Part shown: positions 4,187-44,178 of the stretch, in pieces | Layout: every line of letters starts with the position of its first letter | Position numbering within the stretch: position 1 is the first letter of the stretch | NCBI RefSeq assembly: GCF_023554255.2 | Contig: NZ_JAMJWD020000001.1 | Span: 898,755-962,754, forward strand | DNA: 64,000 nucleotides | Source: Phyllobacterium sp. 21LDTY02-6 | GTDB taxonomy: Bacteria > Pseudomonadota > Alphaproteobacteria > Rhizobiales > Rhizobiaceae | Direction: 5' to 3' | Made by a program: the position numbers and the translations under genes | The notes under the pieces: model-generated | Told to the model about the DNA's origin: nothing | Databases searched by the model: none | What the model saw: only the letters and a program-made list of their open reading frames with translations

Positions 4187-4581
4187 TGCGTGCGATACTG
4201 GCGCTCCTCTCTCGCTTCGGCACAGTCGGAATTGCCGCTACCCTGTTGTACCTGATCGTATCGAACATCTTGATATTCCTTGGCGCAGAGCCAATCGCGG
4301 CATCCGTCGTCGCCTATATTGCCGGCATGGTCGTTTCCTTTTTCGGGCAAAGCCTCTTCACCTTTCGGGTTCAGGGGCTGAAGCTCCACCATGGTCTGCG
4401 ATTTTTCGTACTGTCGGCCGTCGGGTTGTTGATGAGCTATGGCACGGTCTACGCGGCAATGGCCAATGAAATTCCACCGATGGTGGGCACTGTCGCAACC
4501 GCGCTGCTCGTTCCGGTCATCAGTTTCCTCGCAATGAGATTTTGGGTCTTTCCGGACGGATCATCCGGTCCGACGACCTAG
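4186..4581 (+). CDS. GtrA family membrane protein
   Basis: A 131-residue inner-membrane protein of the GtrA/DPMS family (PF04138) with four predicted hydrophobic segments (near residues 10-32, 38-58, 70-92, 98-120). Diagnostic residues are RFGTVGIAATLLYLIV at the N-terminus, YIAGMVVSFFGQSLFTF in the middle, and FLAMRFWVF at the end. GtrA proteins are thought to flip polyprenyl-phosphate-linked sugars across the membrane for later addition to lipopolysaccharide or wall glycans. It is coupled to the methyltransferase upstream (TAATG) and runs convergent into the sulfotransferase. Its usual partners, a GtrB-like GT2 (11940) and a GtrII-like enzyme (13048), are in the window but not in the same operon. 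Confidence 0.9.
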   Translation: MRAILALLSRFGTVGIAATLLYLIVSNILIFLGAEPIAASVVAYIAGMVVSFFGQSLFTFRVQGLKLHHGLRFFVLSAVGLLMSYGTVYAAMANEIPPMVGTVATALLVPVISFLAMRFWVFPDGSSGPTT

Positions 4582-4597
4582 ATAATCGGCAGCAGCG

Positions 4598-9580: not shown

Positions 9581-9655
9581 TCGCTACCCGGCTGCTGCAT
9601 TGTCTGAACGGACAGGCCTCTGCCGGCAGGGTCAGTAAGTCCTATAGCAGAAGCA

Positions 9656-29197: not shown

Positions 29198-30622
29198 ATG
29201 CTCGACAGGCGCAAGTTCTACATCAATGGCGAATGGGTCGATCCGCTGCAGCCGAACGATCTCGAAGTCATCAATCCGGCGACGGAGGAGCCCATTGCCG
29301 TCATCTCCATGGGAACGGCCGGCGATGTCGACAGGGCGGTCGCCGCGGCAAGGCAGGCCTTCCGTTCCTATAGCCGGACCTCGGTGGAAGAGAGGCTGGC
29401 GCTGCTCGAAAAACTGCTGGCGGTCTACAAGCGCCGCTATGACGAGGTGGCCCGCACCCTGACCCGGGAACTCGGCGCCCCGATCAGCATGAGCACCGAA
29501 CAGCAGGCCGATGTCGGCGTCGGCCACCTATCGGGCTTCATCGACGGGCTGAAGACGCTGCACATGCGCGAGGAACTGGCCAATGGCGATATCGTCGTGC
29601 GCGAGCCGATCGGCGTCTGCGGGCTGATCACGCCGTGGAACTGGCCGATCAACCAGATCGCGCTGAAAGTCGTGCCGGCGCTGGCCACCGGCTCGACATG
29701 CGTGTTGAAACCCAGCGAATTCACGCCGCTGAATGCGTTGCTCTACGCGGAAATGATCGACGAGGCGGGCTTTCCGGCCGGAACGTTCAATCTCGTCAAT
29801 GGCGACGGCCCGACCGTCGGCGCAGCGCTGTCGAAACACCGGGATGTCGACATGATGTCCTTCACCGGTTCGACGCGGGCCGGCATTGCCGTCAGCAAGG
29901 ATGCGGCCGACACGGTCAAGCGGGTGACGCTGGAACTCGGCGGCAAGTCGCCCAACATCGTCTTCGACGACGCGGATCTCGGCGAGCGCATCCCTGCCAG
30001 CGTCGCCGAATGCTTCAACAATAGCGGCCAGTCCTGCGATGCGCCGACCCGCATGCTCGTGCAGAGGGGCGTCTATGACAAGGTGGTGGAGCTTGCCCGT
30101 GCGGCCGGCGCCAAGGCCCGCGTCGGCAATCCGGAGGAGGAGGGCGATCATATCGGGCCTCTCGTCAGCGACGTGCAGTTCGGCCGCGTGCAGAGCCTCA
30201 TCAAGGCGGGCATCGACGAAGGCGCCCGCGTGCTCGTCGGCGGAGCCGGCAAGCCAGAAGGTTTCGAGACCGGCTATTTCGTCAAGCCGACAATATTCGC
30301 TGACGTCACCAACGACATGCGCATCGCGCGCGAGGAGGTTTTCGGGCCGGTGCTGGCGCTGATTCCCTTCGATAGCGAGGAGGAGGCCGTCGAGATTGCC
30401 AATGATACGCCCTATGGCCTTGCAGCCTATGTGCAGACCGGCGATCCGGAGCGGGCCGAACGGGTGGCGTCGCGGCTGAAGGCCGGCATGGTGCATATCA
30501 ATGGTGGCCCGCATCGCTATGGCAGCCCGTTCGGCGGCTACAAGCAATCCGGCAATGGCCGCGAAGGCGGCGTGTTCGGGCTCGAGGATTTCCTGGAGAT
30601 CAAGACGATCCACAGACCGTGA
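29198..30622 (+). CDS. Aldehyde dehydrogenase family protein
   Basis: A 474-residue NAD(P)-dependent aldehyde dehydrogenase of normal length. Visible motifs: GLITPWNWPINQIALKV (catalytic Asn), KPSEFTPLNA, FTGSTRAGIAV, VTLELGGKSPNIVFDD (general-base Glu) and FNNSGQSCDAPTRM (nucleophile Cys), ending PFGGYKQSGNGREGGVFGLE. ATG 29198 is preceded by AGGAGGAGG. It converges on the AruI-like gene. Because AruI would make 4-guanidinobutyraldehyde, this enzyme is a candidate for its oxidation to 4-guanidinobutyrate; betaine aldehyde is the other obvious substrate in this neighbourhood. Sequence alone does not decide. Confidence 0.88.
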   Translation: MLDRRKFYINGEWVDPLQPNDLEVINPATEEPIAVISMGTAGDVDRAVAAARQAFRSYSRTSVEERLALLEKLLAVYKRRYDEVARTLTRELGAPISMSTEQQADVGVGHLSGFIDGLKTLHMREELANGDIVVREPIGVCGLITPWNWPINQIALKVVPALATGSTCVLKPSEFTPLNALLYAEMIDEAGFPAGTFNLVNGDGPTVGAALSKHRDVDMMSFTGSTRAGIAVSKDAADTVKRVTLELGGKSPNIVFDDADLGERIPASVAECFNNSGQSCDAPTRMLVQRGVYDKVVELARAAGAKARVGNPEEEGDHIGPLVSDVQFGRVQSLIKAGIDEGARVLVGGAGKPEGFETGYFVKPTIFADVTNDMRIAREEVFGPVLALIPFDSEEEAVEIANDTPYGLAAYVQTGDPERAERVASRLKAGMVHINGGPHRYGSPFGGYKQSGNGREGGVFGLEDFLEIKTIHRP

Positions 30623-30638
30623 TCACTACATTGCGCTT

Positions 30639-30663
30639 TGGTCGGCTGCCTGTCAGCCGACCA
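30639..30663. terminator. Hairpin between convergent genes
   Basis: TGGTCGGCTG (30639-30648) and CAGCCGACCA (30654-30663) form a perfect ten-pair stem with a five-base loop CCTGT that overlaps the stop codon of the AruI-like gene. It probably ends transcription from both sides, although neither side has a long T-run. Confidence 0.55.
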
Positions 30664-32266
30664 GTCTTTCCTCGATCTCGATGAGGCAGGGCTTGCCCGC
30701 AGCTCTTGCCTTCGACAGCGCTTCCGGCAACTCGTCGATGGAGGCGAGGCGGGTTGCCTCGATGCCATAGGCCTGCGCGATCAGCAGGTAGTCCGGCGGC
30801 GACGGACGCACGCCGACCGGCTCGATGTCCACCTCCACCATGGCGCGCTCGATCTCCTGATAGCCATTATTGTTCCAGACGATGAAGATGACGGGCACGT
30901 CCTCGTCGATTGCGGCGCCGAGTTCGCCCAGCACGAACTGGAAGCCGCCATCGCCGACAAGGCAGATGGTCGCGGCTTCGGGCCTGCCGAGCGCCGCGCC
31001 GATGGCAGCGGGCGGGCCGAAACCGAGGGCGCCGAAGCCGGTTGCGGCATTGAACCAGCCGCCGACCCTGTCATGGTCGAAATACATGTTGCCGGAATAG
31101 ACGGTCTGGGTGGAGTCGCCGACGATCAGCGAACCGGGCAAGGTATCGCGCAGCATGTTGAGGAAGCCGACATGCGCCCGGGTGCGGGGGGCGAGTTCCG
31201 TCCAGGCCGCCTCGCGCACCTTCGCGGCGCGCTCTTCGCCCGTACCGGCATGGCGGCGATCGGGCATTGCGGCCGCATTGCGGCCAGGGGGCAGGGCGGC
31301 GACGAGGGCCGAGACCGCCTGTTGCGCCGAGGCCTCGATCGGCAGGAATGCCGGCCAGCGGTCCAGTTGCGCCGCATCGATGTCGATCCTGACGAAGCGC
31401 TTCATCGCCGGAAAGCCGCCATCGCCATACATGTCGTAATCGGTCGGGCCCATCTCGGTGCCGATGCCGATGACGAGATCGCTTTCGGCGATCAGGTTGC
31501 GCACCGCCTTCAGGCTGGCGCTGGCCGGCACGATCAGCGGATGTCCATACATGATGCCGCGCGCATTGGTGGTGGAAACGACCGGAGCGCCGAGCCTTTC
31601 GGCAAGCTGCGCGATTTCGGTCGCCGCCCCCTTCGCGCCGCCGCCGATCAGGATGAGCGGTTGTTCGGCCGTTGCGCAGAGGCGGGTGAGCTCGGCCATG
31701 GTTTCCGCCGACATCTGCGGCAGCGGCGCGTCGAAATCGAGCCGCCGGGCGCCATCGAGCGGCAGCGCCATGACGTCGAGCGGGATTTCGATATGCACAG
31801 GCCCCGGCCGCCTGGAGGCGAAGAGGGCGAAGGCGCGCGCAAGCACGATGGGCAGTTCGCCCGGCGTCTCGATACGGTGCGAAAACATCGCGACGGTCTG
31901 CAGCATGGCGCGCTGGTTGGGCAATTCATGCAGGAAACCCATGCCCTTGCCGAGGGAATCGCGCTGGTTGACGCCCGAAATGACCAGCATCGGCACGGAA
32001 TCGGCGCGCGCCTGGCCCATGGCGGTGATCGTATTGGTTATTCCCGGTCCCGTGATGACGAAGGCGACGCCGGGCTTGCCGGTGGCGCGCGCATAGCCAT
32101 CCGCCATGAAGCCGGCGCCCTGTTCATGGCGCGGGGTGATGTGGCGTATGCTGGAGCGCGCGAGGCCGCGATAGAGTTCGATCGTGTGGACGCCCGGAAT
32201 GCCGAACACCGTATCGACATGATAGGCCTCGAGGAGTTGTACGAGTGCTTCGCCGACCGTCGTCAT
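30653..32266 (-). CDS. aruI: 5-guanidino-2-oxopentanoate decarboxylase-like ThDP enzyme (AruI-like)
   Basis: A 537-residue thiamine-diphosphate enzyme. The start MTTVGEALVQLLEAYHVDTV, followed by FGIPGVHTIELYRGL, is characteristic of AruI, which decarboxylates 2-ketoarginine to 4-guanidinobutyraldehyde in the arginine transaminase pathway. The ThDP-activating Glu is in RHEQGAGFMADGYAR and the cofactor motif is GDGGFQFVLGEL ending in VWNNNGY. The frame is open further upstream, but ATG 32266 is chosen because it overlaps the AruH stop as ATGA and matches the family start. It is the last gene of a four-gene coupled operon. A different 2-oxoacid (for example a methylated ketoarginine) is possible. 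Confidence 0.87.
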   Translation of the reverse strand: MTTVGEALVQLLEAYHVDTVFGIPGVHTIELYRGLARSSIRHITPRHEQGAGFMADGYARATGKPGVAFVITGPGITNTITAMGQARADSVPMLVISGVNQRDSLGKGMGFLHELPNQRAMLQTVAMFSHRIETPGELPIVLARAFALFASRRPGPVHIEIPLDVMALPLDGARRLDFDAPLPQMSAETMAELTRLCATAEQPLILIGGGAKGAATEIAQLAERLGAPVVSTTNARGIMYGHPLIVPASASLKAVRNLIAESDLVIGIGTEMGPTDYDMYGDGGFPAMKRFVRIDIDAAQLDRWPAFLPIEASAQQAVSALVAALPPGRNAAAMPDRRHAGTGEERAAKVREAAWTELAPRTRAHVGFLNMLRDTLPGSLIVGDSTQTVYSGNMYFDHDRVGGWFNAATGFGALGFGPPAAIGAALGRPEAATICLVGDGGFQFVLGELGAAIDEDVPVIFIVWNNNGYQEIERAMVEVDIEPVGVRPSPPDYLLIAQAYGIEATRLASIDELPEALSKARAAGKPCLIEIEERLVG

Positions 32267-33453
32267 GCCGATTTCCGTTGCTGGAGGCGGGAGGCGAGGC
32301 GGACGATGCCGGCGCAGGCGGTATCGATCTGGTCGTCGGCAACGCTGAGGCTCAGTCTCAGATAGCCGGACAGGTTGGCGCCGAACGATTCGCCGGGCAT
32401 GACGGCGACGTGTTCCTCCTCGAGGAGGCGCATGGCGAAATCCTGCCCGCTGAGGCCGCTCGCACGTATGTCGGCGAGGATGAACATGCCTGCCTGCGGC
32501 ACTTTCGAGACGATGCCGGCAACGCCGTCGAGCCGTTCGGAGATGCGCTCGGCGCGGCGCAGGAAATTGGTCCGCATCGTTGCCGCCGCCGCCGCTGGCT
32601 GGCCCAGCGCATAGGCGGTCATGTCGGCTATGAAGGGCTGGACGCCGAAGAGCAGCGATTCCGACAGCGGCAGCAGCCGCCGGGTGAACTCCTTCGGCCC
32701 GACGCACCAGCCGCTGCGAAAGCCCGGCGCCGCGTGCGATTTGGAGATCGAAGCCACCGCAATCGCCCGGTCGGCCAGTTCCGCGCGGTCGACCGGCGAA
32801 GCGAACTTCCCGTCGAAGATGAGAAGTTCGTAGACCTCGTCCGACACGATCCAGAGATTGTGGCGCCGGCAGACCTCGCCGATCTCGCCGATCTCCCTGT
32901 CGCTGAGGACGGCGCCGGTCGGATTGTGCGGCGTATTCAGGAGCAGCACCTTCGAGCGCGGCGTGATGACCTTTTCGAGGTCCGCGGCCTGCATGCGGAA
33001 GCCGTTTTCCACATGCAGCGGAACCGATACGCGCGTTGCGCCCGTTGCCCTGATGACGCCGTCATAGGTGGCGTAGAGCGGATCGCCGGTGATGATCTCG
33101 TCGCCCGCCTCGGCAAGGCCGAGCATGACGAGCGAGAGCGCCGTCTGCGTGCCGGGGAAGCACATGATGTTGTCGGCATCGATCTGGCGGCCGGTCCGCA
33201 GCGTATATTTGCGGGCAAGCTCCGCCAGCACGGCCGGTTCGCCGCGCCCGTTCGAATAGCCGGTGCGGCCGGCGCGCATGGCCTTGTCGGCAATGTCGAT
33301 CATGTCGGCCGGGGTCGGGATATCGGGCTCGCCAATGGTAAGCTCGACGATATCGATGCCCTCGCGCTTCATTTCGCGGGCGCGCATGTGCACCGCCCAT
33401 TTGTCGGAGCCCAGTCCTGCAAGGCGATCGGTGACGGATGCAAAGCGCATCAT
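32263..33453 (-). CDS. aruH: Arginine:pyruvate transaminase-like aminotransferase (AruH-like)
   Basis: A 396-residue fold-type I PLP aminotransferase of the class I/II group. Key motifs: YSNGRGEPAVLAELARKY, FPGTQTALSLVM, LNTPHNPTGAVLSD, IVSDEVYELLIF, and the PLP lysine in SISKSHAAPGFRSGW; the C-terminal arginine motif is SGYLRLSLS. Placement directly before an AruI-like gene supports AruH, which moves the alpha-amino group of arginine to pyruvate to give 2-ketoarginine and alanine. ATG 33453 overlaps the TetR stop by ATGA and its own stop overlaps the AruI start the same way. A general aromatic or branched-chain role cannot be excluded from motifs alone. Confidence 0.85.
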   Translation of the reverse strand: MMRFASVTDRLAGLGSDKWAVHMRAREMKREGIDIVELTIGEPDIPTPADMIDIADKAMRAGRTGYSNGRGEPAVLAELARKYTLRTGRQIDADNIMCFPGTQTALSLVMLGLAEAGDEIITGDPLYATYDGVIRATGATRVSVPLHVENGFRMQAADLEKVITPRSKVLLLNTPHNPTGAVLSDREIGEIGEVCRRHNLWIVSDEVYELLIFDGKFASPVDRAELADRAIAVASISKSHAAPGFRSGWCVGPKEFTRRLLPLSESLLFGVQPFIADMTAYALGQPAAAAATMRTNFLRRAERISERLDGVAGIVSKVPQAGMFILADIRASGLSGQDFAMRLLEEEHVAVMPGESFGANLSGYLRLSLSVADDQIDTACAGIVRLASRLQQRKSA

Positions 33454-34103
33454 TGGGCGCCTCCTTCGGTTAGTGAGATTCCAAGTATAGCCTCGATAGC
33501 GCCGATGCCGGTCGCGGCCAACTCCCCATCGCTGAAAATATCGCCGGCAAGGCAGCCTTCGAGCCAGAGGCCGTCGATGACGGCATTGATGGCGATGGCG
33601 TGGCGGCGGGTGATGGCTGGCGCTGCGGGCTTGCCCTCGGCCAGCAAGGCGGCGCGGATCAGCGCTTCCAGCTCGTCGCGAAAGCCGAGATAGCCGTCCC
33701 GGTGGGCGGCGGCCATGGCGGCGTCCGCATGAACGAGGCCGATGAAGCCGGCCCAGAGCGACAGATTGTGCGGGTCCATGATTGGCGCGCCGAGATTGGC
33801 GGTGACGAAGGCCGCGAGGCGGGAGCGGGGATTGTCATCGGCATTGAGCAAGGCAGCGCCGGCCTGGACGGTCATCCTGCCCATGACCGCCCGGTAGGCG
33901 GCGCCGATGAGATCGTCCTTGGCGGGGAAATAATAGCGGATGAGGCCGGGGGTCACATCGGCCCTCAGTGCAATTTCGCGCACGGTCGCCCCGGCGAGCC
34001 CGCGCTCCGCCACACATTGCAGCGTCGCGGCGATGAGATCCTCGCGGCGCTTGTCCTCGCCCTCGCGGCGGAAGCTCTTGCGTGTGGCGGGCTGCGGCTT
34101 CAT
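33450..34103 (-). CDS. TetR family regulator, BetI-like
   Basis: A 217-residue TetR repressor. The HTH block reads REDLIAATLQCVAERGLAGA, then TVREIALRADVTPGLIRYYF and PAKDDLIGAAYRA, very close to BetI, the choline-sensing repressor, in both helix pattern and spacing. The ligand domain has the BetI-like NLSLWAGFIGLVHADAAM and AIAINAVIDGLWLEGCLAG segments. ATG 34103 overlaps the hydrolase stop as ATGA; the longer open frame upstream is a shadow of the hydrolase gene. Its place inside the DDAH-AruH-AruI operon suggests autoregulation and control of the divergent amino-acid transporter, with an arginine derivative or a quaternary amine as effector. The ligand is unknown. Confidence 0.87.
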   Translation of the reverse strand: MKPQPATRKSFRREGEDKRREDLIAATLQCVAERGLAGATVREIALRADVTPGLIRYYFPAKDDLIGAAYRAVMGRMTVQAGAALLNADDNPRSRLAAFVTANLGAPIMDPHNLSLWAGFIGLVHADAAMAAAHRDGYLGFRDELEALIRAALLAEGKPAAPAITRRHAIAINAVIDGLWLEGCLAGDIFSDGELAATGIGAIEAILGISLTEGGAQ

Positions 34104-34972
34104 TGGCGCCAGACGGGCCGCGTCAGGCAGGTCGGGCCGCCCTCGCAGGCGATGCACAGCGCGTCGGCCTCGAAAGTGGTCACCGTGCAGCCGGCGGCTT
34201 CCATCACCGCCCTCGTGCCATCGAAGCCGGCGACGGCGATCACCTCGAAGGGCGCGGTCGGCAGGACATTGAGGTTGAGGCCGTTGCTGGCGGCGAATTC
34301 CTGTTCCGGCGCCGCGATCAGGCGAATGCCGCGCTGCTTCAACAATTGGTAGAAGGCGGCGGGCAAGAGCGGCATGTGCACGAGCGCCAGATCTTCGGCG
34401 AGGGGCGAGATGATCGACATCAGGTGCAGGCAGGCCTCTTCGCCGTGCCAGAGCGGCAGGTCGAAGCCGAGAACGCTGATGCCGAAAGGCCTCAGGATCG
34501 CCGCCAGCTGCTCGATGCCGGCCTGGTTGGTGCGCACGCCGCGGCCGACGGCAAGCGTCGTCGCATCGACCCAGACGCAATCGCCGCCTTCGACGGTGCC
34601 CGGCGCCTCGATCCTGCCAAGCAAAGGCACGCCCATCTGCTGGTAGGTGTCGCCATGAAGGTCCGGCTCCTCCATGCGCAGGCGCTTGCCCATGCGCAGA
34701 AGCACCGCGCCATGGTCGGTCACAAGCGAAGGGTCGTGCGTGAAGATCGAATCCGAAAGTCCGTCATTGCCGTCCCTGATCCAGGTGATATCAGCGCCCG
34801 AGCGCGCAACGAGATCGGCGAAGACGCGATGCTGCTCCGAGGCGCGGATCGGGTCGAACTGCTCGCCATAGTGCCAGACATGGGGTTCCGCACCGGCCAT
34901 GACCCTGTCGGGCATGCGCATGATGACGCGTTTGAGGGGCAGGGCCATGGATTGGGAACCGAATGCGGTCAT
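34100..34972 (-). CDS. Dimethylarginine dimethylaminohydrolase / arginine deiminase family enzyme
   Basis: A 290-residue guanidine-modifying enzyme. Features: acidic substrate-binding segment WIRDGNDGLSDSIFTHDP near residue 65, GTVEGGDCVWVDATTLAVG (Glu/Asp) near 130, the catalytic His in EEACLHLMSIIS near 185, and the nucleophile Cys in CEGGPTCLTRPV near the C-terminus. Its length fits DDAH-type hydrolases better than the 400-residue arginine deiminase ArcA. It would release an amine (dimethylamine, methylamine or ammonia) and citrulline. It is first in a four-gene operon with TetR, AruH and AruI, all joined by ATGA overlaps. The combination with arginine transamination suggests methylarginines or arginine as substrates, an inference. 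Confidence 0.8.
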   Translation of the reverse strand: MTAFGSQSMALPLKRVIMRMPDRVMAGAEPHVWHYGEQFDPIRASEQHRVFADLVARSGADITWIRDGNDGLSDSIFTHDPSLVTDHGAVLLRMGKRLRMEEPDLHGDTYQQMGVPLLGRIEAPGTVEGGDCVWVDATTLAVGRGVRTNQAGIEQLAAILRPFGISVLGFDLPLWHGEEACLHLMSIISPLAEDLALVHMPLLPAAFYQLLKQRGIRLIAAPEQEFAASNGLNLNVLPTAPFEVIAVAGFDGTRAVMEAAGCTVTTFEADALCIACEGGPTCLTRPVWRQ

Positions 34973-35012
34973 CTTATGCTCTCGAAAAATTGTCGCGGAC
35001 GATATTTATACG

Positions 35013-35033
35013 CTTGCATAATTAGAGCGCAAG
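35013..35033. promoter_or_regulatory. Candidate operator dyad between divergent operons
   Basis: CTTGC (35013-35017) and GCAAG (35029-35033) are inverted arms flanking an AT-rich centre with GCATAAT, which resembles a -10 box. The site lies in the 191-base gap between the hydrolase and ATPase genes, where the operon-encoded TetR protein would be expected to act. The short arms make this tentative. Confidence 0.35.
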
Positions 35034-35125
35034 TGGTGTGATGCGTTAAATTCAGGCAAGCAAGACCTGTGCTGACAAAAGAGGCGGATCAATATCGTTA
35101 TGATGATTTCTGCAGTCCCAGCCCG

Positions 35126-35171
35126 GATGGGATCGTCCGAATGAGCCAGATGGAATCATCCGAATGACGAT
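35126..35171 (+). repeat. Imperfect 23-base tandem repeat before the ATPase start, with an 8-codon frame
   Basis: GATGG-GATCGTCCGAATGA begins at 35126 and GATGG-AATCATCCGAATGA at 35149, differing at two of 19 positions. The first copy provides ATG 35141 and a short frame MSQMESSE whose TGA overlaps the ATPase ATG at 35164. This is probably a recent duplication of the start region; an effect on translation is possible. Confidence 0.55.
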
Positions 35172-35973
35172 GAGCACCGCCAGCCCGCTCACCCATCCTT
35201 CGGCCTCGCAAGGCGAGGCGCTCCATGTCTCGAACCTGCACAAGCGCTTCGGCGCGCTGGAAGTGCTCAAGGGCGTCTCGCTGACGGCGAAGGATGGCGA
35301 TGTCGTCGCGCTCATCGGCGGCAGCGGTTCGGGAAAATCGACCTTCCTGCGCTGCGTCAACTTCCTCGAAAACCCGACCAGCGGCGTCATTCGCATCAAT
35401 GGCGAGGAGGTCGAGATGGTCAGCGACGGCGCGGGCGGGCAGGTGCCGGCCAACCGGCGCCAGATCGAGCGCATCAGAAGCCGTCTCGGTATGGTGTTCC
35501 AGAATTTCAACCTTTGGCAGCACATGACCTTGATGCAGAACGTGGTCGAGGTGCCGATCCACGTTCTCGGCATGAAGCGCGACGAGGCGGTGGCGATCGG
35601 CGAGCAATTGCTGGAACGCGTCGGCCTGTCGGCGAAGCGCGATGTCTATCCCGCCTTTCTGTCGGGCGGGCAGCAGCAACGCGCCGCCATTGCGCGGGCG
35701 CTGGCCATTCAGCCGCGCGTGATGCTGTTCGACGAGCCGACATCGGCGCTCGATCCGGAACTGGTGGGCGAGGTGCTCAAGGTCATCGCCGACCTGGCCG
35801 CCGAGGGCCGCACCATGCTGCTGGTGACGCATGAGATGAAGTTCGCCCGCGAGGTCGCGAGCCATGTCATCTACCTGCACAATGGGATCGTGGAGGAGGA
35901 AGGGCCGCCGGACGAGTTGTTCGGATCGCCAAAATCCGAGCGTTTGAAGCAGTTTATACGCACTGTCTCATGA
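35164..35973 (+). CDS. Basic/polar amino-acid ABC transporter ATPase (HisP type)
   Basis: A 269-residue nucleotide-binding subunit. Walker A is GGSGSGKST near residue 57, the Q-loop is MVFQNFNLWQHMTLMQN, the signature is LSGGQQQRAAIARALAIQP, Walker B is VMLFDEPTSALDPELVGEVL and the switch is LLVTHEMKFAREVASHVIYL. This is the HisP/GlnQ class for histidine, lysine, arginine, ornithine and similar substrates. Its stop overlaps an ATG by ATGA and the binding-protein gene follows, then two permeases, so the four genes are one operon. Divergence from the DDAH/AruH/AruI operon suggests that it imports arginine or a methylated arginine. Confidence 0.92.
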   Translation: MTMSTASPLTHPSASQGEALHVSNLHKRFGALEVLKGVSLTAKDGDVVALIGGSGSGKSTFLRCVNFLENPTSGVIRINGEEVEMVSDGAGGQVPANRRQIERIRSRLGMVFQNFNLWQHMTLMQNVVEVPIHVLGMKRDEAVAIGEQLLERVGLSAKRDVYPAFLSGGQQQRAAIARALAIQPRVMLFDEPTSALDPELVGEVLKVIADLAAEGRTMLLVTHEMKFAREVASHVIYLHNGIVEEEGPPDELFGSPKSERLKQFIRTVS

Positions 35974-36014: not shown

Positions 36015-36824
36015 ATGGAGACCAGAATGAAGATGCTCGTAAAATCAGCCATCGCCGCCGGTGTCGTGGCCGCCACGATGGGAATGGCCGCCACGATGGG
36101 CATGGCCAAGGCCGAGACCGTGAAAGTCGGCATTGCCGCGGAACCCTATCCGCCCTTCGCCTCGCCGGATGCTTCCGGCAAGTGGCAGGGCTGGGAAGTC
36201 GAGATCGCCATGGCGCTGTGCGAGGAGGCCAAGCTCGACTGCGAGATCACGCCGGTGTCGTGGGATGGCATCATTCCGGCGCTGACCACGAAGAAGATCG
36301 ACATCATCACCGCCTCGATGTCGATCACCGCCGAGCGCGAGAAAACCATCGATTTTTCGGACAAGTACTATAATACGCCGACGGTCATTCTCGGCTCGAA
36401 GGACGTGAAGATGGAGCCGACGCCGGAGGGGCTGAAGGACAAGATCATCGGCGTCCAGGTCTCGACCGTGCACCAGGCCTATGTGAAGAAGCATTTCGGC
36501 GATACCGCAGCCGAGATCAAGGAATACCAGACGCAGGACGAGGCCAACCAGGATCTCGCGGCCGGACGCATTGACGCGACGCAGGCCGATGCGCTTGCGC
36601 TGGAGACTTTCGCCGCCACGGATACGGGCAAGGCCTGTTGCGAGATCAAGGGCAAGGTCGCCGACGATCTCGAAGTGCTGGGGCCGGGTGTCGGTGTCGG
36701 CATACGCAAGGGCGATACGGCGATGAAGGAAAAGATGAACGCCGCGATCAAGGGCATCCGCGCCAACGGCAAATATGACGAAATCTCGAAGAAGTACTTC
36801 AACTTCGATATTTTCGGCGGTTGA
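36015..36824 (+). CDS. LAO-type amino-acid ABC substrate-binding protein
   Basis: A 269-residue periplasmic protein of SBP family 3. The signal peptide includes MKMLVKSAIAAGVVAATMGM and a repeated ATMGMA, cut near AKA. The mature protein has VKVGIAAEPYPPFASPD, WQGWEVEIAMAL, WDGIIPALTTKKIDIITASM, TAEREKTIDFSDKYYNTP and GVQVSTVHQAYVKKHF, all typical of lysine/arginine/ornithine binders, with a CC pair at KACCEIKG. The frame is open from ATG 35970, which overlaps the ATPase stop. ATG 36015 (GGGGAA upstream) or 36027 (GGAG upstream) gives a normal signal peptide and is preferred. Together with the operon context this fits arginine-like ligands. Confidence 0.9.
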   Translation: METRMKMLVKSAIAAGVVAATMGMAATMGMAKAETVKVGIAAEPYPPFASPDASGKWQGWEVEIAMALCEEAKLDCEITPVSWDGIIPALTTKKIDIITASMSITAEREKTIDFSDKYYNTPTVILGSKDVKMEPTPEGLKDKIIGVQVSTVHQAYVKKHFGDTAAEIKEYQTQDEANQDLAAGRIDATQADALALETFAATDTGKACCEIKGKVADDLEVLGPGVGVGIRKGDTAMKEKMNAAIKGIRANGKYDEISKKYFNFDIFGG

Positions 36825-36890: not shown

Positions 36891-37643
36891 TTGACCGACG
36901 CATCCCTCGTGCCGCAGGCTGTGCTCGACCTTCTGGCACTGCTGTCGCCCAGCCCGCCCGGCTGGGGCGGCAATCTCCTGCGCGGGCTGCTGCATTCGCT
37001 GCAGATCGCCTTCGGCTCCTTCGCCATGGGACTGATGATCGGCACGCTCGGCGCCTATGCCAAGCTCTATGGCGGGCCGATCGCCAGGGATCTCGCCGCG
37101 ATCTATACCACCGTGGTGCGCGCGGTTCCCGAACTCGTGCTGATCCTTCTTCTCTATTATGCCGGTACCGATCTCATCAACCGCGTGCTCGAATCCGCCG
37201 GCTATGCCCGGGTCGACATCAATGGGCTGGTGGCGGGCATCGTCGTGCTCGGCTTCGTGCAGGGCGCCTATGCGACGGAAGTGCTGCGCGGCGCGATCAA
37301 GGCCATACCGCAAGGCGAGATCGAAGCGGCGCGCGCCTATGGCATGGGGCCGATGCTGATGATGCGGCGCATCACGCTGCCGGCGATGCTGCCCTATGCG
37401 TTGCCGGGATTGGCCAATCTCTGGCTCATTTCCACCAAGGACACCGCCTTGCTGGCCGTGGTGGGCTTCAGCGAACTGACGCTGGAGACGCGGCAGGCGG
37501 CCGGGGCCACCAAGGCCTATTTCCTGTTCTTCATGGCGGCGGGAGCGCTCTATCTCCTTGTCACGCTGTTTTCCAACGCCATCATCGGCCGGATCGAGAA
37601 ATGGGCGCGCCGCGGCCTGCCATCGGCGAAAGGGGCGCGCTGA
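36891..37643 (+). CDS. Amino-acid ABC permease (HisQ type)
   Basis: A 250-residue inner-membrane permease with about five membrane segments. NLLRGLLHSLQIAFGSFAMG opens the His/Glu/Gln/Arg permease domain, TTVVRAVPELVLILLLYY is the conserved loop, and the EAA motif reads EIEAARAYGMGPMLMMRRIT. TTG 36891 is used as start since the match with homologues begins here and no ATG precedes the first helix. Its TGA shares one base with the ATG of the second permease (TGATG). Partner of the HisP-type ATPase and LAO-type binding protein upstream. Confidence 0.92.
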   Translation: MTDASLVPQAVLDLLALLSPSPPGWGGNLLRGLLHSLQIAFGSFAMGLMIGTLGAYAKLYGGPIARDLAAIYTTVVRAVPELVLILLLYYAGTDLINRVLESAGYARVDINGLVAGIVVLGFVQGAYATEVLRGAIKAIPQGEIEAARAYGMGPMLMMRRITLPAMLPYALPGLANLWLISTKDTALLAVVGFSELTLETRQAAGATKAYFLFFMAAGALYLLVTLFSNAIIGRIEKWARRGLPSAKGAR

Positions 37644-38488
37644 TGAGCAATACCGCACCCAAGCTCGAAACGCCGCTGGATACCTTTTCCATCCACAAGG
37701 AGGGCGGGCCGCCATTCCGGCTGAGGGACATGCCGCCGCACCGGATCGTTCTGGTGCTGATCGGCCTGGCGCTGGTGGCCTCGGCAGCCATCTTCATGCG
37801 CTGGGACTGGCTGCCCTCCTATGGCGGGCTGATCCTGCAAGGCTTGTGGCGGACGATCTGGATTCTCGTCGTGACGGTGGTGCTGGGCTTTCTTCTGGCG
37901 GTGCCGCTCGGCCTTGCGCAGGCCGCCGGCCCCGCGATCTTCGCCATACCGGCCAGATGGTTCTGCACCGTCATTCGCGGCACGCCGCTGCTCTTGCAAT
38001 TATGGCTGCTCTATTACGGCCTCGGCTCGCTTTTTCCACAATATCCCTGGATCAGGGGTTCCGAGCTCTGGCCCTATCTGCGCCAGGCCTGGCCCTATGC
38101 GGTGCTTGCGCTGACGCTGTCCTATGCCGGCTATGAGGGCGAGGTCATGCGCGGAGCCTTTGCCGGCGTGCCGAAGGGTCAGCTCGAGGCGGCACGCGCC
38201 TTCGGCATGCGGCGCTTCACTATCCTCAGGCGCATCTGGCTGCCGCAGGCGATCCACCGGGCGTTGCCGACGCTGGCGGGCGAGGCGGTCCTGCAGTTGA
38301 AATCGACGCCGCTTGTCGCAACCATCACGGTGGTCGATCTTTATTCGGTCGCCTCGCGCGTGCGGCAGGATACGTTCATCACCTATGAGCCGCTCCTGCT
38401 GCTGGCCGCCGGTTACCTGATCATCACCGGCATCATCGTTTTTCTGTTCCGCAAGCTGGAACGGCTGATCCCCTCGCGTCTCGGTTGA
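37643..38488 (+). CDS. Amino-acid ABC permease (HisM type)
   Basis: The second permease, 281 residues. It starts MSNTAPKLETPLDTFSIHKE, a cytoplasmic leader longer than in enterobacterial HisM, then IVLVLIGLALVASAAIFM as an extra N-terminal helix. Domain features are LILQGLWRTIWILVVTVVLG, WFCTVIRGTPLLLQLWLLYYG, and the EAA loop GQLEAARAFGMRRFTILRRI. ATG 37643 overlaps the stop of the first permease by one base; the few codons of open frame before it are out of context. It completes the four-gene transporter. A 180-base gap then separates it from the CocE gene. Confidence 0.92.
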   Translation: MSNTAPKLETPLDTFSIHKEGGPPFRLRDMPPHRIVLVLIGLALVASAAIFMRWDWLPSYGGLILQGLWRTIWILVVTVVLGFLLAVPLGLAQAAGPAIFAIPARWFCTVIRGTPLLLQLWLLYYGLGSLFPQYPWIRGSELWPYLRQAWPYAVLALTLSYAGYEGEVMRGAFAGVPKGQLEAARAFGMRRFTILRRIWLPQAIHRALPTLAGEAVLQLKSTPLVATITVVDLYSVASRVRQDTFITYEPLLLLAAGYLIITGIIVFLFRKLERLIPSRLG

Positions 38489-38668: not shown

Positions 38669-40672
38669 ATGCGGACGGTAGACAGGTTTCCACGCAATAT
38701 CATCGAACATGCCGACATGGGCATCGCAATGCCGGATGGCTGCCGGCTCTCGGCGCGGGTCTGGATGCCGGACGACGCTTCCGAACAGCCGGTGCCGGCG
38801 ATCCTGGAATTTCTTCCCTACCGCAAGCGCGACGGCACCACTGCGCGGGACAATCTCACCCATCCCTATTTCGCCGGCCATGGCTATGCCTGCCTGCGCG
38901 TCGACATGCGCGGCAATGGCGATTCCGAAGGGCTGATGGAGGATGAATATTCCGAACAGGAGCTAGGCGACGCCTGCGATGTCATCGCCTGGATCGCCAG
39001 CCAGCCCTGGTGCAGCGGCACCGTCGGCATGATGGGGATTTCCTGGGGCGGGTTCAATTCGCTGCAGGTCGCGGCCCTGCAGCCGCCGGCACTCAAGGCG
39101 ATCATCACGCTCTGTTCCACCGACGACCGCTATGCCGACGATATCCATTACAAGGGCGGGCTGCTGCTCAACGAGAATCTCGGCTGGGGCGCGACGATGC
39201 TGGCCTATTCCTCGCGCGCGCCGGACCCTGCCTTGCGCGGCGAGAAATGGCGCGACATGTGGCGCGAGCGGCTGGAGAACGAACCGTTCCTGCCGGCGGT
39301 CTGGCTGCGGCACCAGACGCGCGACGCCTATTGGAAGCGCGGTTCCGTCTGCGAGGATTTCGCTTCGATCAAGGCGGCGACCCTGGCCATCGGCGGCTGG
39401 GGCGATGCCTACAAGAACGCCGTGCCGCGGCTGATGCAGGGTATCGGCGCGCCGGTGAAGGGCATCATCGGCCCCTGGGTGCACAAATATCCGCATTTCG
39501 CCGTGCCGGCGCCGCGCATCGGCTTCCTGCAGGAGGCACTGCGCTGGTGGGATCGCTGGCTGAAGGATATCGACACCGGCGTCGAGGGCGATCCGGCCTA
39601 TCGCGGCTACCTCATGGACAGCGTCCGGCCGAAGAGCTGGTACACGGAGCGCCCGGGGTGCTGGATCGCCGAGCCGCAATGGCCGTCCGCCACGATCGGC
39701 AGCCGCAGCTACCATCTCGGTTCCGGCATGGTGCTGGCCGACGAAGCCGGTGCGGCTTTCGCCCATCTCGTCTCCTCGCCGCAGGATTGCGGCATGATGG
39801 GCGGCGAATATTGCGCCATATGGCTGGGGCCGGAACTGCCGGGCGACCAGCGCCGCGACGATGCGCTGTCGCTATGCTACGACCGGGCGCTGGACGAGAC
39901 GATCGACATTGTCGGCGCGCCGGAAATCAGCTTGACGCTGGCGAGCGACAGGCCGGTGGCGATGGTCGCCGTGCGGCTCTGCGACGTGCATCCGGACGGC
40001 GCCTCGACGCGCATCACCTATGGCGTCTTCAATCTTTGCCATCGCGGCGGCCACGACGCGCCGCAGCCGCTGGAACCGGGGCAGGAATACCGCATCAGCT
40101 TCAAGCTCGACGACATCGCCTATCGCATCCCGGCCGGGCACAGGCTGAGGGTGGCCGTTTCCTCGTCCTACTGGCCGATGGTCTGGCCCTCGCCGCAGCA
40201 GGCGAGCCTGACATTGAGCGCCGGCCGGATCGACATTCCCGCCCGAAAGCTGGCAGAGGGCGATGAATGGACCTTCGCCGAACCGGAAGCGGCCGCGCCA
40301 TGGCAGCTCGACATCCTGCGGGAAGCCGCCAACAGGCGCCATATCGAGCATGACCAGGTCAGCGGCAGGATCGCGCTCGTCATCGAGGATGATTTCGGCG
40401 AGGCCCGCGACCGGGATCACGGGCTGATCCATGGCGGCACCGCCCGCGAGCGCTGGGAGATCGATCCGGGCGATCCGCTGTCGGCGCGCGGCGAGACGCA
40501 CTGGACGGAAATATCCGGACGGGACGACTGGCGGATAAGGACGGAGACCTTCACGACGATGCGCTCGGACGCCGGGCATTTCTATCTCACGGGCCGCATC
40601 GAGGCCTATGAGAACGACGAACTCGCGTTCGAGCGGGACTTTGACGAAACGATCGAACGCCATTTCATTTGA
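38669..40672 (+). CDS. CocE/NonD family hydrolase (peptidase S15)
   Basis: A 667-residue serine hydrolase. The alpha/beta core has LEFLPYRKRDGTT, LRVDMRGNGDSEG and the nucleophile elbow GMMGISWGGFNSLQVAAL near residue 125; the C-terminal jelly-roll domain contains YRISFKLDDIAYRIPAGHRL and VAVSSSYWPMVWPSPQ, as in CocE and X-prolyl dipeptidases. No signal peptide is visible, so it is cytoplasmic. It lies 110 bases before a complete peptide-type ABC transporter on the same strand and probably hydrolyses an ester or amide brought in by it. Substrate unknown. Confidence 0.88.
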   Translation: MRTVDRFPRNIIEHADMGIAMPDGCRLSARVWMPDDASEQPVPAILEFLPYRKRDGTTARDNLTHPYFAGHGYACLRVDMRGNGDSEGLMEDEYSEQELGDACDVIAWIASQPWCSGTVGMMGISWGGFNSLQVAALQPPALKAIITLCSTDDRYADDIHYKGGLLLNENLGWGATMLAYSSRAPDPALRGEKWRDMWRERLENEPFLPAVWLRHQTRDAYWKRGSVCEDFASIKAATLAIGGWGDAYKNAVPRLMQGIGAPVKGIIGPWVHKYPHFAVPAPRIGFLQEALRWWDRWLKDIDTGVEGDPAYRGYLMDSVRPKSWYTERPGCWIAEPQWPSATIGSRSYHLGSGMVLADEAGAAFAHLVSSPQDCGMMGGEYCAIWLGPELPGDQRRDDALSLCYDRALDETIDIVGAPEISLTLASDRPVAMVAVRLCDVHPDGASTRITYGVFNLCHRGGHDAPQPLEPGQEYRISFKLDDIAYRIPAGHRLRVAVSSSYWPMVWPSPQQASLTLSAGRIDIPARKLAEGDEWTFAEPEAAAPWQLDILREAANRRHIEHDQVSGRIALVIEDDFGEARDRDHGLIHGGTARERWEIDPGDPLSARGETHWTEISGRDDWRIRTETFTTMRSDAGHFYLTGRIEAYENDELAFERDFDETIERHFI

Positions 40673-40782
40673 GGCATTGCACCGCGACTGGAATGACGAG
40701 TTGAAATTTGCGACGATAGAGTTGAATATTTCACATAACCGGCTGGCGCCATGCGCCTCCATAAAAAGAAGGGGAAAGTAGA

Positions 40783-42372
40783 ATGTCCAGAGAACTCGAT
40801 TATCTGAGCCGCCGGGTAGCCCAGGGAAAACTGTCGCGCCGCGACTTCCTCGGCCGGGCCGCGGCCCTTGGCGTCACCAGCGTTTTCGCCAATTCCCTGC
40901 TCGGCAGCGCCGCGCTGGCCGAAGGGCCGGTCAAGGGCGGCACGCTCAAGGCCGGCATGCAGGGCGGCGCCTCGACGGACAGTCTCGACCCCGCCACCTG
41001 GCAGAGCCAGGTTCCCTACAAGTTCGGCCGCCAATGGGGCGAACAGCTGGTGGAGATCCAGCCGGACGGCACGCTCCAGGCCAAGCTCGCCGAGGAATGG
41101 GGCTCCTCGGACGACGCCAAGGTCTGGACCTTCAAGATCCGCAAGGATGTCGAGTTCCACGATGGCAAGACGATGACGCCCGACGACGTGGTCGCGACCA
41201 TGGAGCGGCATTCGGACGCCAATTCGAAATCCGGCGCTCTCGGCGTCATGGGCGGCATCTCCAATGTCAAGCGCGATGGCGACACGGTCGTCTTCACGCT
41301 CAAGGAACCCAATGCCGACCTGCCGTTCCTGCTGGATGATTATCACCTGATGATCCAGCCCAATGGCGGCAAGGACAAGCCGACCGCCGGCATCGGCACC
41401 GGACCCTACAAGGTGGTGACGGAAGAGCCGGGCGTACGGCATATCGGCGCGAAATTCGCCAATTACTGGAACGGCGACAAGCGCGGCCATGCCGAGCAGA
41501 TCGAGATCATCGTCATCAACGACGCCACGGCGCGCACATCCGCGCTGCAGTCGGGCCAGGTCCACATGATCAACCGCGTCGAGCCGAAGATCGTCGATCT
41601 CGTCAAGCGCGTGCCTGGCGTCACCATCCAGAACGTCGCCGGCAAGGGGCATTACGTGTTCATCGCCCATTGCAACACTGCGCCATTCGACAATAACGAC
41701 CTGCGGCTGGCGCTGAAATATGCGATGAACCGCGAGGACATGGTGGAGAAGATCCTGCGCGGCTATGGCTCGGTCGGCAATGACTTCCCCATCAACAAGG
41801 CCTATCCGCTGTTCTCGGACGATATCGAGCAGCGCGCCTATGATCCCGACAAGGCTGCCTTCCATTTCAAGAAGTCCGGCCATGACGGTCCTGTCCTGCT
41901 GCGCACGTCGGATGTCGCCTTTCCGGGCGCGGTCGATGCGGCCCAGCTCTACCAGCAGAGCGCCGCGAAGGCCGGGATCACCATCGAGGTCAAGCGCGAG
42001 CCGGGCGACGGCTACTGGTCGGAGGTGTGGAACAAGCAGCCATTCTCCGAATCCTACTGGGGCGGACGCCCGACGCAGGACCAGATGTATTCGACCGCCT
42101 ATCTGTCGACCGCGGACTGGAACGATACGCGCTTCTTCAACGAGAAGTTCGACAAGATGCTGATTACGGCGCGCGGCGAGCTGGACGAGACCAAGCGCAA
42201 GCAGATCTATCGCGACATGGGGACGATCGTGCGCGACGAGGGCGGCGTGATCGTGCCGATGTTCAACGATTTCATCGATGCGACCAGCGCCAAGGTCGGC
42301 GGCTGGGTGCCTGACGGCAATCAGGAGATGAGCGGGGGTTATGCGCTGTCGCGCTGCTGGCTGAACGCCTGA
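40783..42372 (+). CDS. Peptide-type ABC substrate-binding protein (SBP family 5, Tat-exported)
   Basis: A 529-residue periplasmic protein. The N-terminus MSRELDYLSRRVAQGKLSRR, followed by DFLGRAAALGVTS, contains the twin-arginine motif SRRDFLG, so it is exported folded. The SBP_bac_5 core includes LAEEWGSSDDAKVWTFKIRK, VEFHDGKTMTPDDVVATMER, GTGPYKVV, and NDLRLALKYAMNREDMVEKI. It heads an operon of two permeases and a fused double ATPase. GGGGAAAG precedes ATG 40783. The ligand could be a peptide, or another compound such as an amide cleaved by the upstream CocE-type hydrolase. Confidence 0.92.
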   Translation: MSRELDYLSRRVAQGKLSRRDFLGRAAALGVTSVFANSLLGSAALAEGPVKGGTLKAGMQGGASTDSLDPATWQSQVPYKFGRQWGEQLVEIQPDGTLQAKLAEEWGSSDDAKVWTFKIRKDVEFHDGKTMTPDDVVATMERHSDANSKSGALGVMGGISNVKRDGDTVVFTLKEPNADLPFLLDDYHLMIQPNGGKDKPTAGIGTGPYKVVTEEPGVRHIGAKFANYWNGDKRGHAEQIEIIVINDATARTSALQSGQVHMINRVEPKIVDLVKRVPGVTIQNVAGKGHYVFIAHCNTAPFDNNDLRLALKYAMNREDMVEKILRGYGSVGNDFPINKAYPLFSDDIEQRAYDPDKAAFHFKKSGHDGPVLLRTSDVAFPGAVDAAQLYQQSAAKAGITIEVKREPGDGYWSEVWNKQPFSESYWGGRPTQDQMYSTAYLSTADWNDTRFFNEKFDKMLITARGELDETKRKQIYRDMGTIVRDEGGVIVPMFNDFIDATSAKVGGWVPDGNQEMSGGYALSRCWLNA

Positions 42373-42385
42373 CCGGGCCGTTCGG

Positions 42386-43345
42386 ATGAGCCTCCCGGTA
42401 CTCAAACTGGTTGCCCAGCGCATAGCGATGGGCATCCTGCTGCTCCTGGCGGTCTCGGTGCTGATCTTCGTCGGCACCCAGATCCTGCCCGGTGACGTTG
42501 CGCAATCCATATTGGGCCAGTCCGCCACGCCGCAGGCGCTCGAAAACCTGCGGCGGGACATGGGGCTGAACGATCCGGCCTATATCCGTTATTTCCGCTG
42601 GCTCGGCGGCGTGCTCACCGGCGATCTCGGCACCGCCTTGTCGAGCGGGCAGGACATAGCGTCGTCGTTGAAGGGCAGGCTGTGGAACACGCTGTTCCTG
42701 GCCTTCTGGGCGGCGATCGTCTCCATTCCGCTGGCGATCGGCCTCGGCCTGCTCGCGGTGCGCTATCGCAACGGTTTCGTCGACAGGCTCATTTCCGGCC
42801 TCGGGCTGGCATCGACCTCGCTGCCCGAATTCTTCACCGGCTACCTGTTGATCTATTTCGTCGCCGTGCGCCTGCAATGGTTTCCGAGCGTCTCCACCGT
42901 TTTCGACGGCATGACGCTCGGTGAGCGGCTCAGCGCCATCGCATTGCCGGTGACGGTGCTGACGCTGGTGGTGCTCGCCCACATGATGCGCATGACCCGC
43001 GCCGCCATCCTGAACGTGATGCAATCGGCCTATGTGGAAACGGCGGAGCTCAAGGGCCTGACGCCGTTGCAGATCATCACCCGGCACGCCTTTCCGAATG
43101 CCGTCGCGCCGATCGTCAATGTCGTCATGCTCAACCTTGCCTTCCTCGTCGTCGGCGTCGTCGTGGTCGAGGTCATCTTCGTCTATCCGGGCATGGGGCA
43201 ATATCTGGTCGACCATGTGGCCAAGCGGGACGTGCCGGTGGTCCAGGCCTGCGGGCTGGTCTTCGCCGCCGTCTATGTGACGCTCAACATCGTCGCCGAC
43301 ATCGTGGCGATCGTCTCCAATCCTCGCCTCAGGCACCCGAAATGA
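42386..43345 (+). CDS. ABC permease, DppB type
   Basis: A 319-residue inner-membrane permease with six membrane segments. Characteristic features are RIAMGILLLLAVSVLIFVGT at the N-terminus, QILPGDVAQSILG with the DppB-type periplasmic motif, GDLGTALSSGQDIA, and the EAA loop YVETAELKGLTPLQIITRHA. It starts 14 bases after the binding-protein gene. Its TGA overlaps ATG 43342, but the DppC gene more likely begins at 43354. Confidence 0.92.
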   Translation: MSLPVLKLVAQRIAMGILLLLAVSVLIFVGTQILPGDVAQSILGQSATPQALENLRRDMGLNDPAYIRYFRWLGGVLTGDLGTALSSGQDIASSLKGRLWNTLFLAFWAAIVSIPLAIGLGLLAVRYRNGFVDRLISGLGLASTSLPEFFTGYLLIYFVAVRLQWFPSVSTVFDGMTLGERLSAIALPVTVLTLVVLAHMMRMTRAAILNVMQSAYVETAELKGLTPLQIITRHAFPNAVAPIVNVVMLNLAFLVVGVVVVEVIFVYPGMGQYLVDHVAKRDVPVVQACGLVFAAVYVTLNIVADIVAIVSNPRLRHPK

Positions 43346-43353
43346 GGCCGGCC

Positions 43354-44178
43354 ATGTCAAGCATCAGGAACATTCCCGTCAGCGCCTGGATCGGCCTCGT
43401 TCTCACTGCGCTCTTCGTCTTCGCCGCCGTGTTCGCGCCATGGGTCGCGCCTTATCCCGTAGGCGAAACCGTCGGCGACGTCTGGGAGCCGATGTCGGCG
43501 AAATATCTGCTCGGCACCGACAATCTCGGGCGCGATCTCCTGTCGCGCCTGATCTATGGCGCACGCATCACCATCTTCATCGCCGCGCTCGCCACCGCCC
43601 TGTCGTTCATACTGGGTTCGGTCCTCGGCTTCGCGGCGGCGGTCATCGGCGGCTGGTTCGATCAGCTCATGTCGCGTTTCGTCGATCTGATCATGGCGAT
43701 ACCGACGCTGATCTTCGCGCTGGTGGTGCTTTCGGTGCTGCCGACCAATGTGGTCACGCTCATCCTGGTGATGGGTCTTCTCGACGCGACCCGTGTCTAC
43801 CGCCTTGCCCGCGCCGTGGCGGTGGACATCAATGTCATGGATTTCGTCGAGGCGGCCAAGCTTCGCGGCGAGGGCAAGATGTGGGTCATCTTCCGCGAGA
43901 TTTTGCCCAATGCGCTGACGCCGCTGGTGGCGGAACTCGGCCTGCGCTTCATCTTCGCGGTGCTCTTCCTCTCCGCGCTGTCCTTCCTCGGGCTCGGCGT
44001 GCAGCCGCCGGACGCGGATTGGGGCGGCATGGTCAAGGAAAACAAGGAGGGCATCGTCTTCGGCATTCCCGCGGCGCTCATTCCCGCGGCGGCGATCGCC
44101 GTCCTGGCGATATCGGTCAATCTCGTCGCCGACTGGATATTGAACCGCACCACAAGTTTGAAGGGAGGGCGCGGCTGA
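43354..44178 (+). CDS. ABC permease, DppC type
   Basis: A 274-residue permease with six membrane segments. The DppC features are WVAPYPVGETVGDVWEPMSA, YLLGTDNLGRDLLSRLIYGA, and the EAA loop FVEAAKLRGEGKMWVIFREI. LGVQPPDADWGGMVKENKEG near the C-terminus is typical. The start was chosen at ATG 43354 because GAGG lies six bases before it; ATG 43342 also exists in frame. Its TGA shares one base with the ATG of the ATPase gene (TGATG). Confidence 0.92.
   Translation: MSSIRNIPVSAWIGLVLTALFVFAAVFAPWVAPYPVGETVGDVWEPMSAKYLLGTDNLGRDLLSRLIYGARITIFIAALATALSFILGSVLGFAAAVIGGWFDQLMSRFVDLIMAIPTLIFALVVLSVLPTNVVTLILVMGLLDATRVYRLARAVAVDINVMDFVEAAKLRGEGKMWVIFREILPNALTPLVAELGLRFIFAVLFLSALSFLGLGVQPPDADWGGMVKENKEGIVFGIPAALIPAAAIAVLAISVNLVADWILNRTTSLKGGRG

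Follow-up and report, generated by a model that had tools for sequence, protein, structure and literature searches.

A DDAH-type pentein encoded with an aminotransferase and an AruI-like decarboxylase, divergent from a basic amino acid importer in Phyllobacterium

In a 64,000-nucleotide stretch of the genome of Phyllobacterium sp. 21LDTY02-6 (contig NZ_JAMJWD020000001.1, positions 898,755 to 962,754; hereafter the window), we examined four minus-strand genes encoding a pentein of the dimethylarginine dimethylaminohydrolase (DDAH) type, a TetR-family regulator, an aminotransferase and an AruI-like thiamine diphosphate (ThDP) decarboxylase, which diverge from a His/Lys/Arg/Orn-type ATP-binding cassette (ABC) importer. 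A sequence-only reading of the locus had described an operon of four genes coupled by ATGA overlaps, and all of its open reading frames (ORFs) and all three overlaps were confirmed, the latter as TCAT on the plus strand at 34100-34103, 33450-33453 and 32263-32266. ATGA coupling is common in bacteria and alone implies only probable joint production. The span first noted ended at 35973 and thus covered only the first gene of the importer, which extends to 38488. The features are:

34100-34972, minus strand: DDAH-type pentein (guanidine hydrolase), 290 residues, first gene of the operon (ORF, family and fold)
33450-34103, minus strand: TetR-family regulator with a BetI-type C-terminal domain (PF13977) (ORF and family search)
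32263-33453, minus strand: class I/II pyridoxal phosphate aminotransferase, about 60% identical to the enzyme of the Sinorhizobium meliloti locus (probably aspC)
30653-32266, minus strand: AruI-like ThDP 2-oxo-acid decarboxylase, passing NF005712
35006-35021, plus strand: predicted TetR operator, TTATACGCTTGCATAA (comparative genomics)
35003-35043, no strand: near-invariant 41-base block of the divergent promoter (18 aligned sequences, the window and the 17 closest loci)
35164-35973, plus strand: importer ATP-binding protein, HisP-like
36015-36824, plus strand: importer substrate-binding protein of Lys/Arg/Orn type with an altered tail pocket (better start; longest ORF from 35970)
36891-37643, plus strand: importer permease, HisQ-like, start uncertain
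37601-38488, plus strand: importer permease, HisM-like, start uncertain
29198-30622, plus strand: aldehyde dehydrogenase, convergent neighbour and possible next step

The longest ORF of the AruI-like gene begins further upstream than the annotated frame.

The gene order holds beyond this strain. In all 17 of the closest loci (16 from genomes named Phyllobacterium and one from 'Rhizobiales bacterium AFS091992'; pentein identity 86-89%), the four genes and the importer lie on the same strands and sides, and the arrangement is therefore not due to chance; the convergent aldehyde dehydrogenase is present in 12 of them. For a wider view we used 199 genomes of the window's family (f1), which we take to be Rhizobiaceae in the wide GTDB sense. 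At a threshold of E 1e-20, the pentein found matches in 62 genomes, of which 59 are orthologues (about 50% identity or more) and three are distant (about 30%) and were left out. Besides the window's own, 60 of 61 loci were compared (one distant match was omitted); 58 of these are orthologous, including two from contigs shorter than 6 kb. The importer (HisP and binding protein) adjoins the pentein gene in 52 of the 58, an AruI-like gene is found in 44, TetR in 33, an aminotransferase in 23, an Ldh_2 dehydrogenase in 21, an M20 amidohydrolase in 13 and a class II aldolase in three. Importer, pentein and AruI-like gene occur together in 42 loci, and the complete four-gene set with the importer in 17. 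The co-occurrence to be looked for according to the sequence-only reading is thus complete among the closest relatives, but the four genes are not a conserved core, with 35 of the 58 loci lacking such an aminotransferase.

Counted per genome, with some pairs lying on different contigs, an AruI-like match (E 1e-150) was found in 52 of 59 genomes with the pentein and in 13 of 140 others (Fisher p 1e-27, uncorrected for relatedness), leaving seven genomes with the pentein only and 127 with neither. Of the 59 genomes with the pentein, 57 were searched for a close aminotransferase (E 1e-90), and 32 had none anywhere in the genome. Aminotransferase and Ldh_2 dehydrogenase were found together in none of the 58 orthologous loci and in none of 80 loci of the named set (the best 80 of 441 relatives). 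This exclusion tracks genus lines, Mesorhizobium loci carrying Ldh_2, and few events may lie behind it. In three loci (L063, L064 and L088), a class II aldolase (PRK07044) comes after importer and pentein and replaces TetR, aminotransferase and decarboxylase.

In sequence and predicted structure, the pentein is nearest to the DDAH of Pseudomonas aeruginosa (PaDDAH), ahead of arginine deiminase. Its predicted structure (mean predicted local distance difference test score 85.9) has PaDDAH (3rhy) as its best solved fold, with a template-modelling (TM) score of 0.86 by target length at 26% identity; ArgZ is a weaker match, at rank 47. The guanidine-hydrolase fold of DDAH type claimed for this protein is thus borne out, although it scores below the cut-offs of the DDAH equivalog models (83.1 of 340, 76.9 of 450 and 24.9 of 300 bits). 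ADI is its sole Pfam match, and it also fails the arginine deiminase model TIGR01078 with a partial match (45 of 489.1 bits). Residues were mapped by alignment to PaDDAH and carry its numbering. Among 141 pentein rows, in which certain genomes are counted twice, the positions of D60, D66, R85, E114, R132 and H162 are conserved in every row and the catalytic Cys (C249) in 137, while the residue before the substrate Asp (the E65 position) is His in 134, Gln in five and Ala in two. Fold, catalytic Cys-His and substrate-binding residues are thus shared with PaDDAH and human DDAH1, and the differences from PaDDAH are the low identity, His for Glu65, a length of 290 versus 254 residues and the missed cut-offs. 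Overall the pentein looks like a divergent DDAH relative acting on the guanidine group of an alpha-amino acid, a candidate rather than a proven dimethylargininase. Among open-licence papers, none was found that describes this operon with a pentein, which is a weak absence.

The remaining four penteins (L089, L090, L091 and L092, at about 8995-9867 of their loci) have Gly for the catalytic Cys with the other six positions intact; their loci hold neither importer nor AruI-like gene, and those of L091 and L092 adjoin an aminotransferase. These proteins are possibly a non-hydrolytic, substrate-binding or regulatory form. The window's genome has a second pentein-family gene (310 residues; contig C6 486263-486892, L317 814-1746). 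In another family of the class, a 42% relative (L208, pentein at 8998-9867) has genes for arginase, ornithine aminotransferase and a His-type importer as neighbours.

A second pentein lineage occupies the same operon in family f25. We take this family to be Roseobacter-type, since its pentein shares 80-83% identity with the Phaeobacter and Sulfitobacter proteins. Here the importer diverges from TetR, aminotransferase and AruI-like genes; next comes another pentein, which carries the DDAH motif, matches PaDDAH over the full length and stands at the opposite end of the operon from the window's pentein (last versus first). This pentein was found in 43 of 198 f25 genomes (E 1e-40). Two named cases have it directly after the AruI-like gene, with the annotation DDAH: on plasmid pPGA1_262 of Phaeobacter inhibens DSM 17395 and in Sulfitobacter W027. 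In a 48-row decarboxylase tree, all 32 rows linked to either pentein (two loci appearing twice) fall in one 34-row clade with support of 100/99. This recurrence of one operon with two penteins is the strongest pointer towards a DDAH-like function of the window's pentein, although penteins of differing specificity could also be drawn to these neighbours.

Of the pair named AruH and AruI by the sequence-only reading, the decarboxylase passes NF005712, '5-guanidino-2-oxopentanoate decarboxylase', a subfamily-level model, with 757.2 of 500 bits. For the aminotransferase, none of the 25 best of 87 families reaches its cut-off. The best model for this enzyme, the guanitoxin enzyme GntC, was rejected as its identity at 242.9 of 415 bits. 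The same holds for the aldehyde dehydrogenase and cut-offs, none being reached with the 25 best of 43 NCBIfam families.

The closest known system is S. meliloti aspC (SMc02262)-ilvB1 (SMc02263) with the ABC transporter SMc02257-02260. AspC is reported to transaminate arginine, agmatine, ornithine and putrescine with pyruvate; IlvB1, encoded downstream, is an AruI homologue with sevenfold higher activity with 5-amino-oxopentanoate; and deletion of aspC cuts nitrogenase activity by about half (PMC7268258). Of the transporter genes, SMc02257, 02258 and 02260 appear in PMC3596328 as an amino-acid transporter, and PMC4941405 gives SMc02259 as a Lys-Arg-Orn binding protein. We compared the window with S. 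meliloti Ak57, whose locus is very probably aspC-ilvB1 / SMc02257-SMc02263, matched by gene order, relation and annotation rather than by locus tag or strain 1021 sequence. It shares the importer divergent from TetR, aminotransferase and decarboxylase, with identities to the window of 60.5% for the aminotransferase, 58.6% for the decarboxylase and 71.6% for the binding protein. The aspC-ilvB1 pair is a promiscuous arginine/ornithine transaminase with a 2-oxo-acid decarboxylase, and the window's pair is hence not new in kind. The statement that no such system was known is thus only partly true, the TetR-aminotransferase-decarboxylase//importer part matching S. meliloti aspC-ilvB1 (PMC7268258). 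What is new here is the divergent pentein with His for Glu, the PaDDAH-like pentein in a Roseobacter-type operon, the TetR-linked operator and the aminotransferase/Ldh_2 exclusion. In the Ak57 record (L311), the aminotransferase and M20 genes (8996-10190 and 3689-4859) each lie in two frames with no table feature, as sequence errors or broken genes.

The P. aeruginosa aruH-aruI pathway likewise has an aminotransferase, an NF005712 decarboxylase and an aldehyde dehydrogenase. The comparison was made with locus L251, from a genome that we take to be Pseudomonas-like. Its AruH- and AruI-like proteins are 38% and 44% identical to those of the window and lie outside the pentein-linked clade, the decarboxylase as a long branch of unsure placement, and neither pentein nor His-type importer was matched in the 16.6 kb around it. 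This genome (G627) holds three NF005712 decarboxylases (L249, L250 and L251) with differing neighbours, and the model's name may span several functions. Recoding of TGA in AruI was also considered, since decarboxylase matches from six genomes of the window's family (G067, G073, G155, G638, G747 and G750) were flagged with one TGA. The first three of these genomes were re-read using the window protein as query and had no TGA; among 173 extracted matches (identity at least 40%, long span) a stop occurred only in L065, at the very end. We take these flags to be matches overrunning the true stop.

The divergent importer is of basic-amino-acid type, as had been proposed. Its binding protein scores below the TIGR01096 cut-off (233.3 of 256.35 bits). 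Tyr14, Arg77 and Asp161 of LAO are conserved in the 18 binding proteins compared. The tail pocket differs from that of LAO in the loss of Asp11, Asp30 to Glu and Phe52 to Trp, giving a pocket with no Asp11 and with Glu13, Glu30 and Trp52.

The regulator is not BetI, contrary to the choline-repressor-like label first given, since it falls below the cut-offs of both BetI models (TIGR03384, 92.6 of 201.3 bits; NF001978, 85 of 118). Its predicted site is TTATACRCTTGNATAA. The motif TTATACRCTTG (at most one mismatch) lies in the divergent promoter of 105 of 105 loci with TetR versus 0 of 19 without (no tblastn match at 1e-15), counted over 124 of 126 divergent intergenic stretches (two were outside the gene table) from related genomes, some taken twice. 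This split was equalled by 13 of 2520 single-base shuffles. The family sample alone gave 33 of 33 versus 0 of 16, and three of the 19 TetR-less stretches hold a match with two mismatches. A CTTG-N13-CAAG pattern was set aside, the shorter motif fitting better (103 of 105 with TetR, 0 of 19 without for the pattern). Within the window only the site at 35006-35021 matches perfectly, and for a longer form the operon holds the one perfect match of the whole genome; with up to two mismatches the longer pattern gives two matches versus four for a reversed control, so that only the perfect one stands out. TTATACRCTTG also occurs in L261, L263, S. meliloti Ak57 (0 mismatches), Phaeobacter and Rhizobium AB2/73, where the site, TTATACACTTGTATAA, is a 7-base inverted repeat around two bases. 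Martelella has a weak match (three mismatches) and no importer at the locus.

Genes, order, conservation, residues, fold and operator distribution were computed here, and enzyme activities are those reported for relatives. Taken together, we think it slightly better than an even chance that the locus is a unit under repressor control that takes up and degrades amino acids of arginine type, guanidine-modified arginines included, by two enzymatic branches. The importer would take up a cationic alpha-amino acid, and TetR would bind its site in the shared promoter and silence both directions until released by a ligand. To judge by the S. meliloti counterparts, the aminotransferase and the AruI-like decarboxylase would convert arginine and/or ornithine through their 2-oxo acids to 4-guanidino- or 4-aminobutyraldehyde, which an aldehyde dehydrogenase such as the convergent neighbour could oxidise. 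The genome has four ureohydrolase-family matches, the three classified being one arginase and two agmatinase-family enzymes, which could finish a guanidinobutyrate route. In the other branch, the pentein would hydrolyse the guanidine group of an arginine-type compound, an N-methylated arginine being the likeliest, to give L-citrulline and an amine.

Several observations weigh against this two-branch unit. The pentein misses every DDAH equivalog cut-off, and with His in place of the DDAH Glu65 its substrate may be plain arginine or another guanidino amino acid. The 35 loci without aminotransferase show the branches to be separable, the pentein is absent from 13 of the 65 sampled genomes with an AruI-like gene, and no pentein match was found in the Ak57 record. 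The PaDDAH-like pentein of f25 is itself below the equivalog cut-off (216.1 and 204.9 of 450 bits); an AruI-like gene directly precedes it in only six of the 30 best loci and was not seen in the other 24, certain of them cut by contig ends, so the link is a minority there. Binding-protein pockets are alike with and without the hydrolase (S. meliloti versus pentein loci; 18 chosen proteins) and hence do not point to an importer specialised for methylarginines; this suggests an existing arginine-type uptake unit that gained the pentein. Lastly, Sulfitobacter, with both operon and TetR, has no operator match (best five mismatches). For the N-methylated arginines first suggested as substrates, the PaDDAH-like lineage in the same operon lends some support, tempered by its own low score.

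Other readings concern mainly what the pentein does. It may act as an arginine deiminase-like enzyme on unmodified arginine, making the operon one of general arginine catabolism with two entry branches in which methylation is irrelevant. The His before the substrate Asp, the lone ADI match and the setting of the L208 relative would fit, as would a PF02274 search of the genome, in which nothing exceeded 37.5 bits and a deiminase role may be open. We nevertheless consider this unlikely, given a sequence and fold closer to DDAH and the PaDDAH-like enzyme in the same slot in Roseobacter-type operons. That latter enzyme, which replaces the pentein in Phaeobacter and Sulfitobacter, also argues against a different plant guanidino amino acid (canavanine, homoarginine or gamma-hydroxyarginine) as natural substrate, and no annotated neighbour is specific to those compounds. 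Many bearers of the locus belong to plant-associated genera, the tail pocket differs from LAO and three of 58 loci carry an aldolase in place of the other enzymes; even so, such a substrate appears improbable.

Two linear routes would instead join the branches. The substrate Asp (D80 in the window's pentein) is conserved in all 141 rows, whereas ArgZ, AstB and similar dihydrolases generally have Asn at this position, and ArgZ is the weaker fold match; a pentein that makes ornithine as an arginine dihydrolase, leaving aminotransferase and decarboxylase to yield 4-aminobutyraldehyde and 4-aminobutyrate, is therefore very improbable, despite the reported sevenfold preference of IlvB1 for 5-amino-oxopentanoate (PMC7268258). 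Alternatively, the pentein could make citrulline, the aminotransferase 2-oxo-5-ureidopentanoate and the AruI-like enzyme 4-ureidobutanal. Gene order matches these steps, and pentein and AruI-like gene stay paired in many loci without aminotransferase. However, the hydrolase is last in Roseobacter-type operons, and the AspC assay mixture contained citrulline but the text does not name it as a substrate (PMC7268258), which makes this route quite improbable.

The two-branch unit we favour could take a more specific form, about which we are doubtful: a bacterial dual-route methylarginine unit, importing methylarginines from the protein turnover of eukaryotic neighbours. The pentein would hydrolyse monomethylarginine (NMMA) and asymmetric dimethylarginine (ADMA), the hydrolysis-resistant symmetric form (SDMA) would leave by transamination and decarboxylation, and TetR would sense one of these compounds; the unit would have arisen twice, different penteins joining the same aminotransferase-decarboxylase-importer core. 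Its counterpart would be mammalian DDAH1 with AGXT2, the latter belonging to another aminotransferase class. There too a hydrolase and an aminotransferase offer parallel routes for arginine derivatives (PMC9174227, PMC3933329), whereas the window has one operon with importer and decarboxylase.

The locus ties a DDAH-type guanidine hydrolase to enzymes of arginine transamination, whose S. meliloti counterparts have been connected with symbiotic nitrogen fixation (PMC7268258), and offers a testable operator and regulator. Eukaryotes make methylarginines, a breakdown product of modified proteins, in quantity. If these are the substrate, plant-associated and marine bacteria would be using such a product through defined genes.

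Adjoining the importer, at 38669-45839 of the window, a hydrolase gene is followed by an apparent peptide ABC transporter (CocE and Dpp by reading of the sequence), and the first two genes of this cluster are found in 15 of the 17 closest loci.

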